This document shows positions 8,589 to 23,264 of a stretch of DNA of 64,000 bases, piece by piece (positions within the stretch are counted from its first letter, which is position 1; each line of letters starts with the position of its first letter). The stretch covers positions 62,001 through 126,000 of the forward strand of contig NZ_AUHD01000009.1 in the NCBI RefSeq assembly GCF_000423005.1. The letters are read 5' to 3'. The DNA comes from Gelidibacter mesophilus DSM 14095. Lineage in GTDB: Bacteria; Bacteroidota; Bacteroidia; Flavobacteriales; Flavobacteriaceae. A model generated the notes under the pieces. It was not told the origin of the DNA, searched no databases, and worked only from the letters and a program-made list of their open reading frames with translations. The position numbers and the translations under genes were made by a program.

Positions 8589-9728
8589 ATGAAAATAGGA
8601 ATCGTATGTTATCCAACCTTTGGAGGTAGCGGCGTGGTGGCAACCGAGCTCGGTTTGGCCTTGTCCAAGCGAGGTCATGAAATTCACTTTATCACCTATA
8701 GCCAACCTGTAAGATTGGATTTGTTGGGCAGCAATGTGCATTATCACGAAGTAACCGTTCCGGAATATCCTTTGTTTTTATACCAACCCTATGAACTAGC
8801 TTTATCGAGTAAACTCGTAGATATGGTGAAGCTTCATGAGATTGAAATTTTACATGTCCATTATGCTATTCCACATGCTTATGCGGCCTATATGGCAAAA
8901 ATGATGCTTCAGGAAGAAGGGATTTATATTCCTATTGTAACCACCCTTCATGGTACGGATATTACGCTAGTTGGAAGTCACCCGTTTTATAAACCTGCAG
9001 TTAGTTTTAGCATTAACAATTCTGACGCCGTAACTTCCGTTTCTCAAAGCTTAAAGGACGATACGCTGCGCTTGTTCGCAATTAAAAAGGAGATCGAAGT
9101 GATTCCTAATTTTATTGATTTTAGCCGTCATAAATCCGAATTTACAGACTGTCAAAGGGATGTCATGGCAAAGGAGGATGAAATGATTATTACCCATATC
9201 AGCAATTTCAGAAAGGTAAAAAACATACCTGATGTGGTAAAGATATTTTACAATATTCAAAAGAAAATACCCGCAAAATTGATGATGGTTGGTGAAGGTC
9301 CAGAAAAAGCAGAAGCTGAGAAGTTATGCGAGAAGTTGGGGATTATGGATAAAGTGGTGTTTTTTGGAAACAGTCATGAAATTGACAGAATTTTATGTTT
9401 TAGCGATTTGTTTTTACTGCCATCCCAAACTGAAAGTTTTGGTTTGGCGGCTTTAGAGGCAATGGCTTCTGGAGTGCCTGTTATTTCTAGTAATACAGGA
9501 GGAATTCCAGAAGTAAATATTGATGGCGTTTCCGGATTTTTGAGCGATGTCAATGATGTTGAGCACATGTCAAACAACGCCATTTATATTTTAAGTGATG
9601 AAGAACGTCTCAAAACTTTTAAACTTAATGCCACTAAAGAATCTGCTAAATTTGCCATAGAAAATGTTGTGCCTCAATATGAAGATATTTATGTGAGGAC
9701 CTTAAAAAATTGTGAACTAGTAAAATAA
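8589..9728 (+). CDS. bshA: N-acetyl-alpha-D-glucosaminyl L-malate synthase
   Basis: 379 residues, GT4 glycosyltransferase. The N-terminus has the BshA-type glycine-rich start CYPTFGGSGVVATELG, and the C-terminal half has the GT4 nucleotide-sugar site with QTESFGLAALEAMASG. It transfers GlcNAc from UDP-GlcNAc to L-malate, the first step of bacillithiol synthesis, in the cytoplasm. The other bsh genes are not in the window. Its presence says that this organism uses bacillithiol as a low-molecular-weight thiol, which matters for interpreting the glutathione-synthetase-like gene at 22224. It stands alone between a secreted hydrolase and an AraC regulator. Confidence 0.93.
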   Translation: MKIGIVCYPTFGGSGVVATELGLALSKRGHEIHFITYSQPVRLDLLGSNVHYHEVTVPEYPLFLYQPYELALSSKLVDMVKLHEIEILHVHYAIPHAYAAYMAKMMLQEEGIYIPIVTTLHGTDITLVGSHPFYKPAVSFSINNSDAVTSVSQSLKDDTLRLFAIKKEIEVIPNFIDFSRHKSEFTDCQRDVMAKEDEMIITHISNFRKVKNIPDVVKIFYNIQKKIPAKLMMVGEGPEKAEAEKLCEKLGIMDKVVFFGNSHEIDRILCFSDLFLLPSQTESFGLAALEAMASGVPVISSNTGGIPEVNIDGVSGFLSDVNDVEHMSNNAIYILSDEERLKTFKLNATKESAKFAIENVVPQYEDIYVRTLKNCELVK

Positions 9729-14583: not shown

Positions 14584-15348
14584 ATGTTAGTTAGAGTTAT
14601 TTTTATGAGAATTTTTCCTACAATCTTGATCCTTTTTATTTCATTTTCGATTCATGCGCAAAAATTATTGGAAACTCCTCCAGGGACACTAAGAATAAAT
14701 GACAGTGTGTTTATGGACAAAGGACCTGTAGATAATTTGATGTATTTAGAGTTTACTAATAGTGTGCAAGAACTATGGAGTTACGCTCTTCATGACTCTT
14801 TAAAATCTTTAGAACTTGGAAATATAGACAGATCGCTTGGCACACATTCATTGAATGAGAATCAAAATAAGGAGATTTATGATAGAGTTACTATAGCTCA
14901 AAACTTGGAATTATCAAAAGAAGTTGATATTTCTACGTACTTCAACCACCCAAAATATAGATATCATCCAGTAATCGGAATATCGAAAGATTTAGCCGAA
15001 CTGTTTTGTGAATGGCGAACTGACCTGGTGAATTTAAGATGGAGTAAAGAATTAAAAGACAGTCAAAATTATAAGAAGATTAAATATCGTCTTCCAACGC
15101 TTAAAGAATACATGTTGGCAAAGGATTATTTCGAAAAAAATTATAAACTTCTAGAAATAGACGAAAGATTACCTTTAAAAATAGATCTGAAAGAACTCAG
15201 AAATCAAGATAAATTCATACTATTCAATAATTCAGAATTCACTTCAAGAGATCAAAATTTTAGAGAAGAGTTAATCACGTCGGACCAAGCGAATCAAACA
15301 GAAGAAAAATATGTGTTTTTCCGTTGCATATGTGAAGTGGAAAAATAG
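14584..15348 (+). CDS. Secreted SUMF1-like (formylglycine-generating-enzyme fold) protein
   Basis: 254 residues; an internal ATG at 14605 would give a tighter signal peptide (MRIFPTILILFISFSIHAQ). The mature part shows a faint SUMF1/GldK-GldJ-like order: PGTLRINDSVFMDKGPV near the start, the HPVIGISKDLAELFCEWR block in the middle, RLPTLKEY after it and an F-R-C ending. This resembles the catalytically inactive SUMF1-fold proteins of gliding/type IX secretion. It is an isolated paralogue with no Gld genes near it. Local base composition is more AT-rich than neighbours. Enzymatic activity is not supported. Confidence 0.6.
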   Translation: MLVRVIFMRIFPTILILFISFSIHAQKLLETPPGTLRINDSVFMDKGPVDNLMYLEFTNSVQELWSYALHDSLKSLELGNIDRSLGTHSLNENQNKEIYDRVTIAQNLELSKEVDISTYFNHPKYRYHPVIGISKDLAELFCEWRTDLVNLRWSKELKDSQNYKKIKYRLPTLKEYMLAKDYFEKNYKLLEIDERLPLKIDLKELRNQDKFILFNNSEFTSRDQNFREELITSDQANQTEEKYVFFRCICEVEK

Positions 15349-18403: not shown

Positions 18404-19309
18404 TCAAATATGTGCAGCACGCCGTCTATTAATTCTATTTTTTATCACTGAAAAGTTGAATAGAATAATGGATAAAAGAATTAAGAGATAGCACATGCCT
18501 TCCAATACGCTAATTTTTTCATCAAAATAGAAAATGGCGAACATAAAATTTATAAGAGGATTCAAATAGATAAAAACGCCCACTACAGAGGAATTCAAAC
18601 CTCTTAGCGCATAAATATTAAGAAACATGGGAATGATTGTAAATACTATGGCAATCAAAGCTAACATTCCGTAAAAGAAAGGTGTTTTCTCATTTGGAGA
18701 TTCATAGGTAGCTATGAAGGGCAGCAGAAAAATCACTGCAAAAAACACTTGAATGGTTAATACTAAAAACCGATCCAATTCCTGGTTTTTACGCTGCAAT
18801 ACCAAATATAGCGCGTAAGTAAGCGCAATGATCATACTGTAAAACAAATCCGTAATATTGCCTAAAGAAAGGAGTAAACAGCCTGTTAAACTCAAAATCA
18901 CAGAGGCCCATTGTAATTTGAACAGTCTTTCCTTCAGAATTAAATAGGCCAGGACCATGGTTAAAATTGGGCATATGAGATAGGCCAACGACGTTGCGCT
19001 GACGCTCACGTTGTTCATCACATAAATATAAATATACCAGTTTAAGGCCAAAAACAGTCCGCTCAGAATGTTGACGATGACGATACGTCGTTTATCTGTT
19101 CCTCCTAAGCCTTTAAACAGGTTGAGGTTTGTTTTTAATACTTTGGGACGTAATACTAAAGATACGAAAAGCATGATCACCACTGACCCAAGGGTGCGAT
19201 AGCTCAGGATGTCAAAAGCTGAAAAATCATCCAAAGATTTTAGCACAAGACTAAAAAATCCCCAAATAGTAAAGGCCGTTATGACTGCAATATAATATTT
19301 TGAATTCAT
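18404..19309 (-). CDS. EamA family transporter, RarD-like
   Basis: 301 residues with ten predicted transmembrane helices in two five-helix EamA halves. The N-terminus (ITAFTIWGFFSLVLKSLDDF) and the conserved NWYIYIYVMNN segment match the RarD subgroup of the drug/metabolite transporter superfamily. The substrate of RarD is uncertain. It is convergent with the symporter gene, with 2 bases between the two stops and no visible terminator. It is divergent from the QEGLA cluster. Confidence 0.85.
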   Translation of the reverse strand: MNSKYYIAVITAFTIWGFFSLVLKSLDDFSAFDILSYRTLGSVVIMLFVSLVLRPKVLKTNLNLFKGLGGTDKRRIVIVNILSGLFLALNWYIYIYVMNNVSVSATSLAYLICPILTMVLAYLILKERLFKLQWASVILSLTGCLLLSLGNITDLFYSMIIALTYALYLVLQRKNQELDRFLVLTIQVFFAVIFLLPFIATYESPNEKTPFFYGMLALIAIVFTIIPMFLNIYALRGLNSSVVGVFIYLNPLINFMFAIFYFDEKISVLEGMCYLLILLSIILFNFSVIKNRINRRRAAHI

Positions 19310-19542: not shown

Positions 19543-20373
19543 ATGCAAAAATTATCCATTGAAGATATCATATCAAAAATAGAAGCAGAAGAATTGTTCC
19601 ATGCGGTATCCGAAGATTATTCGTTTACCATAAAAATTGATGACTATGTGCCCTATGTCTGTGCTGCAGTGCACAACGGACATCAATTCCGAAAGGAATT
19701 ATGGGAAAAATGCCTGCATACAGAGTATGAACGGTGGTATGAGGAAGACCCCAAGACAAAGACCATGCTAAAACCCCATCCTATTGTCATTTCAGGTATG
19801 GATTCTAGGTTTGAATATGATTTGAACAGAGATCCCGACAACGCCATTTACGAGGATGCCTGGGGAAAACAACTATGGGAAAATCCTTTGACGGCCGATG
19901 AGAAATCGACCAGTCTCAATAAGCATCAGAATTTTTACAAAGTGGTTTACGCACTTATAAAGACCTTAGAATTGAAGTTTGGATGCTGTGTTGTTTATGA
20001 TTTGCACAGTTATAATTGGAAGCGTTGGGACAGAGAGGTGCCAACTTGGAATTTGGGAACTTCAAACATTGATAACAAACGGTATGAAAATGCTGTGGAG
20101 GCATGGAGAAAGCAGCTATCACAAATTAAGTTGCCAAACGCTATTCCAACCACAGCCAAAGTTAATGATACGTTTCAGGGTAACGGCTATTTTTTAAAAT
20201 TCATTACCTCTAATTTCAATAATACGCTGGTTTTGGCTACTGAGGTTGCTAAGATTTACTGTGATGAGCTAGGTCAGGTAATTTATCCTGAAGTAGTTTC
20301 CGCAATTAGAAAGGGCTTAAAAAAGCAATTGCCGGAACATGCTTCCAATTTCTATAATATTTATTCTAATTAA
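19543..20373 (+). CDS. N-formylglutamate amidohydrolase-like protein
   Basis: 276 residues, soluble, no signal peptide. Motifs of the FGase/Zn-amidohydrolase family include the early VCAAVHNGHQFRKEL (H as possible metal ligand), SGMDSRFEYDLNRDPDNAIYED, and VYDLHSYNW. In histidine breakdown this fold hydrolyses N-formylglutamate; here no hut gene is present and the gene abuts a DUF1704 gene with zero intervening bases, so a role with the neighbours as an amidase on an unknown substrate is more likely. First gene of a three-gene transcript. Confidence 0.82.
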   Translation: MQKLSIEDIISKIEAEELFHAVSEDYSFTIKIDDYVPYVCAAVHNGHQFRKELWEKCLHTEYERWYEEDPKTKTMLKPHPIVISGMDSRFEYDLNRDPDNAIYEDAWGKQLWENPLTADEKSTSLNKHQNFYKVVYALIKTLELKFGCCVVYDLHSYNWKRWDREVPTWNLGTSNIDNKRYENAVEAWRKQLSQIKLPNAIPTTAKVNDTFQGNGYFLKFITSNFNNTLVLATEVAKIYCDELGQVIYPEVVSAIRKGLKKQLPEHASNFYNIYSN

Positions 20374-22212
20374 ATGATTAAAGAACACGACATAGATGCT
20401 GAATTAGTTGAAACTATTTGTAAAGACATTCAGGATAATGTTCCTGTAAATGCCGCTTTGCCAAAAAATGGCCTGTTGCATATAGACAAATTGTTGCCAT
20501 TTATATGTGTTTACAGATACAAAGAACAAGACGTATACTTTTCAAGACTTTTGAAGACACAAGCGTCGTATTTAATTGCAGAAGAAACTATTGAAATTTC
20601 ACATCTTTTGGAAGCCATACGATTGATTACTTCAGAAAAGTTTGATGCTTTTTTGATCTTGGAATTATGGCCCAATAAGCAATCCTTAAAAAGTCAATTC
20701 CAGATTTATGGACCAAAAGAGAAGTCAATGGAAACCATCAATGCGCTCAGCGATGGTTTTAACGAAATAAAGAAAACATTGTCAAAGGTGAGTACCAAAG
20801 TCATTCATACAGAGTTTAGACATCCAAAGCAATTGTCTCCCTTATTGGATGTAAATACCTCTAAAAAGTTGGGTGCCCTAATTATTGGAATCTCAGTGCC
20901 AGCGGTCTATCAGAACACAGAAACCGATGCGCTGTACTCTTTGTTTTTTAGGAAATTCTACACCATATTTTCTGAAACGATAAAAAGAGCAGTATATGAA
21001 TTTATACGAGTGCAAACCACCGATGCGTTTGAAAATTATTTAATGTTAGGCAAAACTCATATAGATGCTGCAACTATCACTTCTGATACCCAAATTGCGG
21101 AAATCAGTGAAAAAATGTCATTTCTATTAAGTGTCACTCCAGTGAATAGCAACGAGGAATGGGATAAGTTCGAGCAAAATGACTTTAAGACTCCCCCAAA
21201 ATTTAAATATCGGTTGATTGCGATAGATCCTGAATTGGAAAAGCGCAAACTTTATAATATTCCGATAGATCTCGTTGAAGATCCTACAATAGCCTTTATC
21301 CTAAGGGGTAAACGTCTTGAAATTGAGAAACAATTGACAATGCTGGAGGAGCGGGGTACTGATAATTTTAAGTTTATCGGACAAAGTCTCTACGGTGTGA
21401 TCAGGGAAGATGTTTTGGAAGCAGCGGAATTAATTTTGAAAACTTATCCCAAGGGAGAAGTCATTCAAAGCTCCAAACGTTTTAACAGTGCGGAATTTGC
21501 AGAGCGTGCCCAACGGGAAATTGATTTTTATGCCCAAAAATTCCCAGATTTAGAGCTCGGAATAGAGGTTAGGGATGATGTTGCCGGCATTATGGTATCA
21601 AAGTCAAAATTGCTGATCAATAATGAAATGGATCTAGACGCAAGTAGGTGTGATGCCTTGATTCAACACGAAATCGGAACCCATATATTGACCTATTGCA
21701 ATGGAAAAAGTCAACCTCTAAAGCAGATGTATGAAGGTTTTGAAGGGTATGATCAGTTACAGGAAGGATTGGCGGTAATTGCTGAATACTTGGTTGGTGG
21801 GTTGACCGTTAATCGGTTGCGACTGCTGGCGGGGCGGATTATTGCTGTACAATCTTTGGTAGAAAATGCCAGCTTTACAGAAACCTTTGAACTGCTGAGA
21901 AGTTCCTATGCTTTTCCTAATCGTGTTGCCTATTATATCAGCATGCGTGTTTACAGAGGTGGAGGGCTCACAAAAGATGCCGTATACTTGGCCGGACTTA
22001 TGGATTTGATGTCCTATTTGGAACAGGGAGGGAGGCTAGAGCCACTTTATACGGGCAAATTCAACACTACCCATATTAAATTGATTGAAGAATTACTTTA
22101 CAGAAATGTTCTGAAGCAACCTATCTTACCAAATTTTTTAGAACGAAATGAGGTAAAGGAACGCTTGAAAAAGTTAAGGAACGGGATGAATATTGTTGAT
22201 CTTGTAAAATAA
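20374..22212 (+). CDS. QEGLA-motif (DUF1704/TIGR02421) putative zinc carboxypeptidase
   Basis: 612 residues. The C-terminal 300 residues carry H432-E433-IGT-H437, an HExxxH zinc site, and the family-naming Q463-E-G-L-A467, whose Glu is a candidate third ligand. The N-terminal 290 residues are a family-specific region without a recognised motif. The TIGR name speaks of flavohemoglobin expression modulation, but no flavohemoglobin gene is near. Eukaryotic DUF1704 relatives (MATCAP, KIAA0895L) are tubulin carboxypeptidases, so a peptide C-terminal hydrolase is a reasonable inference. The gene starts directly after the stop of the preceding one, and an ATP-grasp gene follows after 11 bases. Cytoplasmic. 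Confidence 0.85.
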   Translation: MIKEHDIDAELVETICKDIQDNVPVNAALPKNGLLHIDKLLPFICVYRYKEQDVYFSRLLKTQASYLIAEETIEISHLLEAIRLITSEKFDAFLILELWPNKQSLKSQFQIYGPKEKSMETINALSDGFNEIKKTLSKVSTKVIHTEFRHPKQLSPLLDVNTSKKLGALIIGISVPAVYQNTETDALYSLFFRKFYTIFSETIKRAVYEFIRVQTTDAFENYLMLGKTHIDAATITSDTQIAEISEKMSFLLSVTPVNSNEEWDKFEQNDFKTPPKFKYRLIAIDPELEKRKLYNIPIDLVEDPTIAFILRGKRLEIEKQLTMLEERGTDNFKFIGQSLYGVIREDVLEAAELILKTYPKGEVIQSSKRFNSAEFAERAQREIDFYAQKFPDLELGIEVRDDVAGIMVSKSKLLINNEMDLDASRCDALIQHEIGTHILTYCNGKSQPLKQMYEGFEGYDQLQEGLAVIAEYLVGGLTVNRLRLLAGRIIAVQSLVENASFTETFELLRSSYAFPNRVAYYISMRVYRGGGLTKDAVYLAGLMDLMSYLEQGGRLEPLYTGKFNTTHIKLIEELLYRNVLKQPILPNFLERNEVKERLKKLRNGMNIVDLVK

Positions 22213-22223
22213 AATCAATAAAA

Positions 22224-23264
22224 ATGAAAATAGGATTTATAATAAATGACCACGCCACGGAAAAATGGAATTATACAACCCCAGCGTTAGGTTTTTCGGC
22301 CTATAAGAGAGGGCATGAAGTTTTTTTTATTGGTGTGGGAGAGCTCTCTTATGCCTCAAAAGGACATCTTAACGTAAGATGTAAAACTATAAAAGATAGA
22401 GTCTTTAAAGGAGAGGAAACCTACTTTAAGGCGGTTCAAAAAGAAGAATTTGTTAATTTATCTTCTAATGATTTAGATGTGTTGTTCTTGCGGAACAATC
22501 CTGCTGATGAAATTAACGAGCGTGATTGGGCTTATAATGCGGCTTTTATATTTGGAGAAATAGCCATGCGTAACGGTGTTATTGTACTCAACCACCCCAG
22601 TAGTTTGGCTGGTGCTGTCAATAAAATGTACTTTCAGCATTTTCCAGAAATTCTACGTCCAAAAACAATTATTACCAGAGATCACAATGAGATAAAGGAA
22701 TTTTTCAAGGAACAAAAACAAAAAATGATTCTCAAGCCTTTACAAGGATCTGGCGGTACCAATGTGTTTATGATGGATAAGAAAAATGAACACAATCTCT
22801 CTCAAACTATTGATGCTATTTGTCGAGATGGATTCGTGATTGCCCAAGAGTACCTCACAGAGGCCACTGGAGGTGATACGCGTTTGTTTTTAATGAATGG
22901 TGTGCCTTTACAGGTAAATGGTCAATATGCGCTCATGCAACGTGTCAATGCATCCGGTGATATTAGAAGCAATATTCATGCTGGGGGTAAACCTGAAAAA
23001 GTGAAAATGACCGATCAGATTATGGAACTTGCAGATATTGTTAGACCCAAACTTGTCCAAGACGGCATGTTTTTGGTGGGAATCGACATTGTAGGCTCCA
23101 AGTTGATGGAGATTAATGTTTTCAGTCCAGGTGGATTGAATGTGATGGGCCAAATGTACGAAGCTGATTTTGCGACACCTGTAATTGAAGCGATTGAACG
23201 AAAAGTCTATTATAAGAGCATGTATAACGATTATCTGTATAATAGCCGATTGGCAACCTTGTAG
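22224..23264 (+). CDS. ATP-grasp ligase, glutathione-synthetase-like, of the QEGLA cluster
   Basis: 346 residues. The ATP-grasp features are clear: the glycine-rich loop KPLQGSGGTNVFMM, the DTRLFLMNG strand and the Mg-binding tail GIDIVGSKLMEINVFSPGG. This closely resembles GshB. The organism encodes bshA, a marker of bacillithiol use, and no gshA is seen here, so this enzyme more probably joins a carboxylate and an amine on another small molecule or peptide. Third gene of the cluster. Fold assignment is firm, product is unknown. Confidence 0.85.
   Translation: MKIGFIINDHATEKWNYTTPALGFSAYKRGHEVFFIGVGELSYASKGHLNVRCKTIKDRVFKGEETYFKAVQKEEFVNLSSNDLDVLFLRNNPADEINERDWAYNAAFIFGEIAMRNGVIVLNHPSSLAGAVNKMYFQHFPEILRPKTIITRDHNEIKEFFKEQKQKMILKPLQGSGGTNVFMMDKKNEHNLSQTIDAICRDGFVIAQEYLTEATGGDTRLFLMNGVPLQVNGQYALMQRVNASGDIRSNIHAGGKPEKVKMTDQIMELADIVRPKLVQDGMFLVGIDIVGSKLMEINVFSPGGLNVMGQMYEADFATPVIEAIERKVYYKSMYNDYLYNSRLATL

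Follow-up and report, generated by a model that had tools for sequence, protein, structure and literature searches.

What do three abutting genes for a deacylase, a peptidase and an amide ligase make, or unmake, together? We address this for a trio in Gelidibacter mesophilus DSM 14095, where a 64,000-nt stretch of DNA was analysed (the window; its genome is G000). Open reading frames for an FGase-like hydrolase, a MATCAP/QEGLA peptidase and a GshB-like ligase all lie on the plus strand, separated by 0 and 11 bases, as a sequence-only reading of this DNA had described. We found that the trio is a real, conserved unit whose association, judged by co-occurrence and adjacency, goes far beyond chance, and that it probably builds and takes apart a small acylated peptide. 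Its parts are as follows.

19543..20373, plus strand: FGase-like zinc amidohydrolase (putative deacylase), 276 aa; PF05013 at 48.8 bits (cut-off 28.9), with H44, N95-R96, D153-x-H155 and E234 conserved
20374..22212, plus strand: long-form MATCAP/QEGLA putative metallo-carboxypeptidase, 612 aa; PF08014 (MATCAP, formerly DUF1704) at 311.4 bits (cut-off 27)
20374..21078, plus strand: peptidase residues 1-235, an FGase-like domain that is degenerate and lacks the active-site residues of FGase, detected with hhalign
21667..21684, plus strand: HEIGTH, peptidase residues 432-437 (HExxxH metal site); H432, E433 and H437 in 46/46 long-form proteins
21760..21774, plus strand: QEGLA, peptidase residues 463-467, with E464 the likely third metal ligand; Q463, E464, G465 and A467 in 46/46
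22224..23264, plus strand: ATP-grasp amide ligase, 346 aa, placed in the GRB lineage by tree; GSH-S_ATP PF02955 at 175 bits and GSH-S_N PF02951 at 41 bits (both over cut-off), PRK12458 at 422.3 bits
23115..23135, plus strand: ligase motif NVFSPGG, residues 298-304, as read in the sequence; canonical GshB has NVTSPT

The peptidase family PF08014 was present in 148/299 genomes sampled from this bacterium's family and 10/148 sampled from its phylum. For comparison we took 27 long-form and 33 short-form loci among the family matches listed, with nine more from the phylum sample; because high scorers were favoured, partnerless loci may be under-represented. At 73 of the 78 chromosomal loci (two of the 78, L022 and L067, on the same contig) a ligase is encoded on the same strand as QEGLA and within four genes of it, so the linkage across relatives that had been set beforehand as a test is conserved. 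Ligase and deacylase are both present at 64/78 loci (63 by script, plus L105, where the gene caller missed a gene), ligase only at nine, and QEGLA stands alone at five. Nine loci related by their peptidase, eight from Gelidibacter and one from Lacinutrix, all hold FGase, long QEGLA and GRB ligase in the same order. The arrangements, which involve two ligase lineages named GRA and GRB, are these.

Type I: GRA ligase, FGase and short QEGLA (~390 aa), mostly after AroC and GltP
Type II, as in the window: FGase, long QEGLA (~610 aa) and GRB ligase; some genomes also have GRA upstream
Type IIIa: long QEGLA with GRB and no deacylase, nine loci
Type IIIb: long QEGLA and GRB together with a gene of AstE/AspA type, 16 loci
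L013: FGase and QEGLA fused into a single protein of 667 residues that follows a GRA ligase

All nine type IIIa genomes hold GRA-FGase-short QEGLA elsewhere. The order FGase, QEGLA, ligase also occurs on plasmids of Sinorhizobium meliloti, Rhizobium CC1099, Shinella, Aminobacter and Pararhizobium, and in a record labelled Roseateles XES5 that is flagged UNVERIFIED_ORG and whose surroundings match Shinella. Two Photobacterium plasmids (GJ3 and DA100) carry a GRA ligase and, after it, an FGase-QEGLA fusion, and a Vibrio plasmid (HDW18) carries such a fusion with no ligase in its locus (plasmid locus only; other replicons were not searched). Separately, we noted a tandem pair of GRB ligases behind a single long QEGLA (L078:3812-5965).

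Co-occurrence follows the same pattern. We searched 60 family genomes, comprising 32 QEGLA-positive genomes of our own choosing (five solo cases included) and 28 QEGLA-negative ones. A ligase scoring above 380 bits was found in 27/32 positives and 0/28 negatives, where the best score was 97.8 bits. The window FGase matched strongly in 23/32 positives, the other nine being the five solo cases and four genomes of the AspA type, and in a single negative, G157. Every ligase-bearing genome has a deacylase, FGase in 23 and the AspA type in four (L078, L081, L086 and L087), and the five positives without a ligase gave no FGase match. In one QEGLA-negative genome, G152, a 72-residue ligase remnant persists behind GltP.

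The state of the deacylase varies with the ligase. By family, the conserved FGase sites would serve in binding metal and substrate. This active site is unaltered in 61 of the 63 sequences compared, several of them near-copies, and each of the 61 has a ligase in its locus. It is altered in both cases without one, a small number of exceptions: G157, where H44, R96 and E234 are replaced in a gene near a contig end with neither ligase nor QEGLA on the stretch read, and the Vibrio fusion, where D69 and H155 are replaced. In the type IIIb clade an AstE/AspA-type gene stands in for FGase (one of the 16 was checked by family: PF24827, 65.2 bits against 25). Enzymes of both families hydrolyse N-acylated acidic amino acids, and the two occupy the same place in different clades. 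The fold that FGase and AspA share does not show in a comparison of their profiles, which gave no match (probability 1.0). Searching the Protein Data Bank (PDB) with the FGase by phmmer returned RNase H2 matches only (E ~0.2).

The peptidase carries the HExxxH site and QEGLA motif named by the sequence-only reading, and each listed residue is invariant across the 46 long-form proteins, near-copies included. Its QEGLA aligns with EEGLA of human KIAA0895L, and it falls short of the TIGR02421 cut-off (301.1 against 338.65 bits). Eukaryotic relatives take off C-terminal tubulin residues, as that reading had said and as PMC10499314 reports; by analogy with them the bacterial protein would be a carboxypeptidase. 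A profile of residues 1-235 matched FGase best (hhalign probability 82.6; the next best among 33 other neighbour-protein clusters reached 2.3), with the FGase D-x-H opposite residues lacking His. Because this region matches FGase and its active-site His is gone, the long peptidase looks, on its profiles, like a decayed FGase-QEGLA fusion, its FGase half inactive and an active FGase supplied in trans.

The ligases form two lineages, GRA and GRB, apart from canonical GshB. In a tree of 62 rows, from which GRB near-copies and every other GRA were omitted, separate groups emerge for GRA, GRB and four GshB (bootstrap/SH-aLRT 95/91, 99/99 and 100/99), and the window ligase falls with GRB; the relation among the three has support of 81/47, with a program warning of long branches. 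All 36 GRA and 44 GRB proteins compared have SPGG, SPGA or TPGG at the site that reads SPTG or SPTC, within an NVTSPT-type motif, in the four GshB (two of these are annotated as GshB; those of Sinorhizobium and Methylobacterium were named by motif and grouping). The window ligase also misses both GshB equivalogs, NF003573 (215.7 against 272) and TIGR01380 (204.2 against 299.05). PRK12458 finds one strong match in the genome, the trio ligase; the other of its two matches, at 83.9 bits, is the RimK gene. The database label of glutathione synthetase for the trio ligase is very likely wrong.

Together, these observations lead us to propose, tentatively but ahead of the other readings, that the trio serves to make and break an acylated dipeptide or small peptide, acyl-X-Y. 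The ATP-grasp ligase would couple acyl-X, through its carboxylate, to amino acid Y; the MATCAP/QEGLA metallo-carboxypeptidase would take Y off; and FGase, or the AstE/AspA-type enzyme in one clade, would hydrolyse acyl-X to free X. Candidates for the acyl group are formyl, acetyl, succinyl and gamma-glutamyl. A ligase product dismantled by FGase/AspA and QEGLA fits best because FGase is intact with the ligase and altered without it, and it is favoured further because two deacylase families share one place and peptidase and deacylase fuse. We favour a small molecule because no conserved partner protein was seen and the ligase is GshB-like. The sequence-only reading had proposed a self-contained cycle of this kind: its conserved unit and its non-glutathione product have stood up, while for the cycle itself the kind of bond made and broken, the sequence of the steps and the idea that the substrate is a small molecule are inferred.

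Several observations weigh against this proposal. The loci with QEGLA alone mean that the peptidase can act without the ligase, and the weak-scoring QEGLA genes of Pseudoalteromonas and Aeromonas are likewise partnerless in their loci. The window ligase passes PRK12458 (422.3 against 408), a model named glutathione synthetase. Similarity of the peptidase to solved human MATCAP is weak (E 0.073), and AlphaFold2 models built from 10-row alignments were unusable for both FGase (pLDDT 39.4) and peptidase (pLDDT 38.1). Finally, in the published data described next, ligase and hydrolases appear co-induced at low salt, which is unexpected if the compound is an osmolyte.

Those data come from Photobacterium damselae. 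Table 2 of PMC10308900 lists A0J47_RS17020, 'Glutathione synthase GshB', as 38.42-fold up and RS17025, a QEGLA protein, as 27.51-fold up in 1% versus 3% NaCl; both are on chromosome II, and its authors discuss RS17020 as a glutathione synthetase. From their neighbouring locus tags and the other Photobacterium loci, the two appear to be the GRA-fusion pair, co-induced at low salt. We surmise, though with considerable doubt, that Bacteroidota, rhizobia and Vibrionaceae share a salt-responsive pathway, so far unrecognised and filed as glutathione synthesis, by which a new acylated peptide metabolite is made and dismantled. If so, eukaryotic MATCAP belongs to a family whose bacterial members already opposed an ATP-grasp ligase. 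As separate observations, betIBA and a BCCT transporter lie near a solo QEGLA in Pseudoalteromonas (L032:1-6560), a cation/H+ antiporter operon near the Shinella trio (L031:11101-15839) and a mechanosensitive channel near the Pararhizobium trio locus (L159:13504-14570); we note these as candidate salt-related neighbours.

The main rival, which we consider rather unlikely, is editing of a protein tail: the ligase would add residue(s) to the C-terminus of some bacterial protein and QEGLA would remove them, in the way that TTL and MATCAP act on tubulin, with FGase/AspA trimming or deprotecting the tail as M14 cytosolic carboxypeptidases do. The tubulin activity of the eukaryotic family members speaks for it (PMC10499314). 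So does RimK, of the same ATP-grasp group, which extends ribosomal protein S6 and which the window genome encodes in an operon with an AspA-like hydrolase and RimB-like retropepsin (contig C5, L124:3198-5557). At 3/3 Vibrionaceae loci (L153:4520-4987, L155:4396-4869 and L156:6530-6889) the unit is directly preceded by a MaoP/DUF413-type gene whose product has an acidic C-terminal tail, ending ...DDDIDY in Photobacterium GJ3, and we regard this tail as a lead only to a protein substrate. Against tail editing, the last residue of the three tails is not conserved (Y, I and D), E. coli MaoP is also acidic-tailed, and hdfR-maoP is an ordinary gammaproteobacterial neighbourhood. No conserved substrate gene was seen beside the unit in Bacteroidota or rhizobia.

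We judge it improbable that the unit scavenges peptides, with QEGLA and FGase digesting imported or recycled small peptides and the ligase an accessory. Solo QEGLA genes do lie beside GltP, a glutamate/dicarboxylate and amino acid symporter, at five loci, and also in G380 and G395. However, AroC-GltP adjacency is found in 18/28 QEGLA-negative genomes too (five of the 18 score only ~150-163 bits and may represent another paralog). GltP is therefore background synteny, and we rejected it as a pathway part. Nor does scavenging predict the altered FGase active site in both ligase-less cases.

Least probable is a role in glutathione or a close thiol, with the ligase acting as glutathione synthetase and the hydrolases recycling its tripeptide product: the GshB family membership, the PRK12458 match, one GRA ligase that passes NF003573 (283.9 against 272) but not TIGR01380, a YbdK-type GCS2 gene, and the 3-mercaptopyruvate sulfurtransferase-like, DCC1 and BshC neighbours of some loci are outweighed by the missed equivalogs, the SPGG motif in place of SPT and the gene content of these genomes. 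The sequence-only reading had called glutathione an unlikely product on the strength of bshA, which is indeed in the window (~8589-9704, 559.7 bits against a cut-off of 273.7). We found bshC elsewhere in the genome (475.4 bits) and no PF04262 gshA in it, with a search that recovered E. coli gshA. The single gene of the GCS2 family in this genome (217.9 bits) is by score a carboxylate-amine ligase of YbdK type (PRK13515, 533.5 against 371) and stays under the listed glutamate-cysteine ligase equivalog cut-offs; weak glutamate-cysteine ligase activity is possible for such enzymes. Sinorhizobium M103 carries a canonical-motif GshB-like gene and the trio on different replicons, together with a plant-type gshA match in two pieces and a QEGLA that its record splits over two frames. 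The sulfurtransferase persists in G152, where the module is eroded.

Other neighbours were considered as parts. The sulfurtransferase-like gene (c15) and a small protein (c36) were rejected because genes like each, recognised from protein starts, remain in G152. BshC lies beside nine long-QEGLA loci of related genera in opposite orientation (its identity was checked against families at one of the nine), and we take this as a local insertion site. In Gelidibacter an EamA-type transporter (window 18404-19309, opposite strand) fills the GRA place between GltP and FGase. An anti-phage role was dropped, as 0/3 trio proteins match any PADLOC-DB model. Promoter-like sites (13, shuffle mean 15.9) and terminator-like sites (3, shuffle mean 3.0) are at shuffle level. 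Elsewhere, a 254-residue protein at window 14584-15348 (plus strand) matches FGE-sulfatase below threshold (22.1 against 23.3 bits), and on contig C1 (L123:3701-7861) a YbdK-type carboxylate-amine ligase sits among two ATP-grasp-like proteins and one glutamine-amidotransferase-like protein, a candidate for a further peptide pathway.

Our literature search turned up no paper pairing DUF1704 with ATP-grasp. A 2009 amidoligase survey by Iyer and colleagues may already list the trio neighbourhood, so we do not claim the association as unpublished. To the sequence-only reading we add the AspA swap, the two ligase lineages, the degenerate FGase-like domain of the peptidase, the decay of FGase where the ligase is missing and the published salt regulation. 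The peptidase family occurs in about half of the sampled family genomes and on rhizobial megaplasmids, beside a ligase annotated as glutathione synthetase. Identifying the product would correct that label, bring to light a metabolite or a protein mark, and place an enzyme family that detyrosinates tubulin in a bacterial setting.

Each component resembles a known enzyme and departs from it. The window FGase shares the PF05013 domain with the N-formylglutamate deformylase HutG but misses TIGR02017 (15.5 against 278.75 bits), and no hut genes adjoin it in the window region listed. The peptidase has the HExxxH and E-G motifs of the MATCAP/TMCP tubulin carboxypeptidases (PF08014), and differs in its extra FGase-like N-terminal domain, its adjoining ligase and its weak match to the human protein. 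Across the core ATP-grasp region the ligase is collinear with E. coli GshB (E 5.2e-35), with family and domain order in common; unlike GshB, it misses the equivalogs, bears SPGG, groups separately in the tree and occurs only with QEGLA in the 60 genomes. The RimK-AspA-like-RimB operon likewise unites an ATP-grasp ligase, an AspA-like hydrolase and a protease, but its ligase is RimK and RimB is a retropepsin-like protease, not a MATCAP. Vertebrate N-acetylaspartylglutamate is handled by RIMKL (RIMKLA/B), GCPII and ASPA, a ligase, a C-terminal peptidase and an N-deacylase acting on one acyl dipeptide, as we propose for the trio; this likeness is an analogy only, since the pathways are not homologous and GCPII is no relative of MATCAP.

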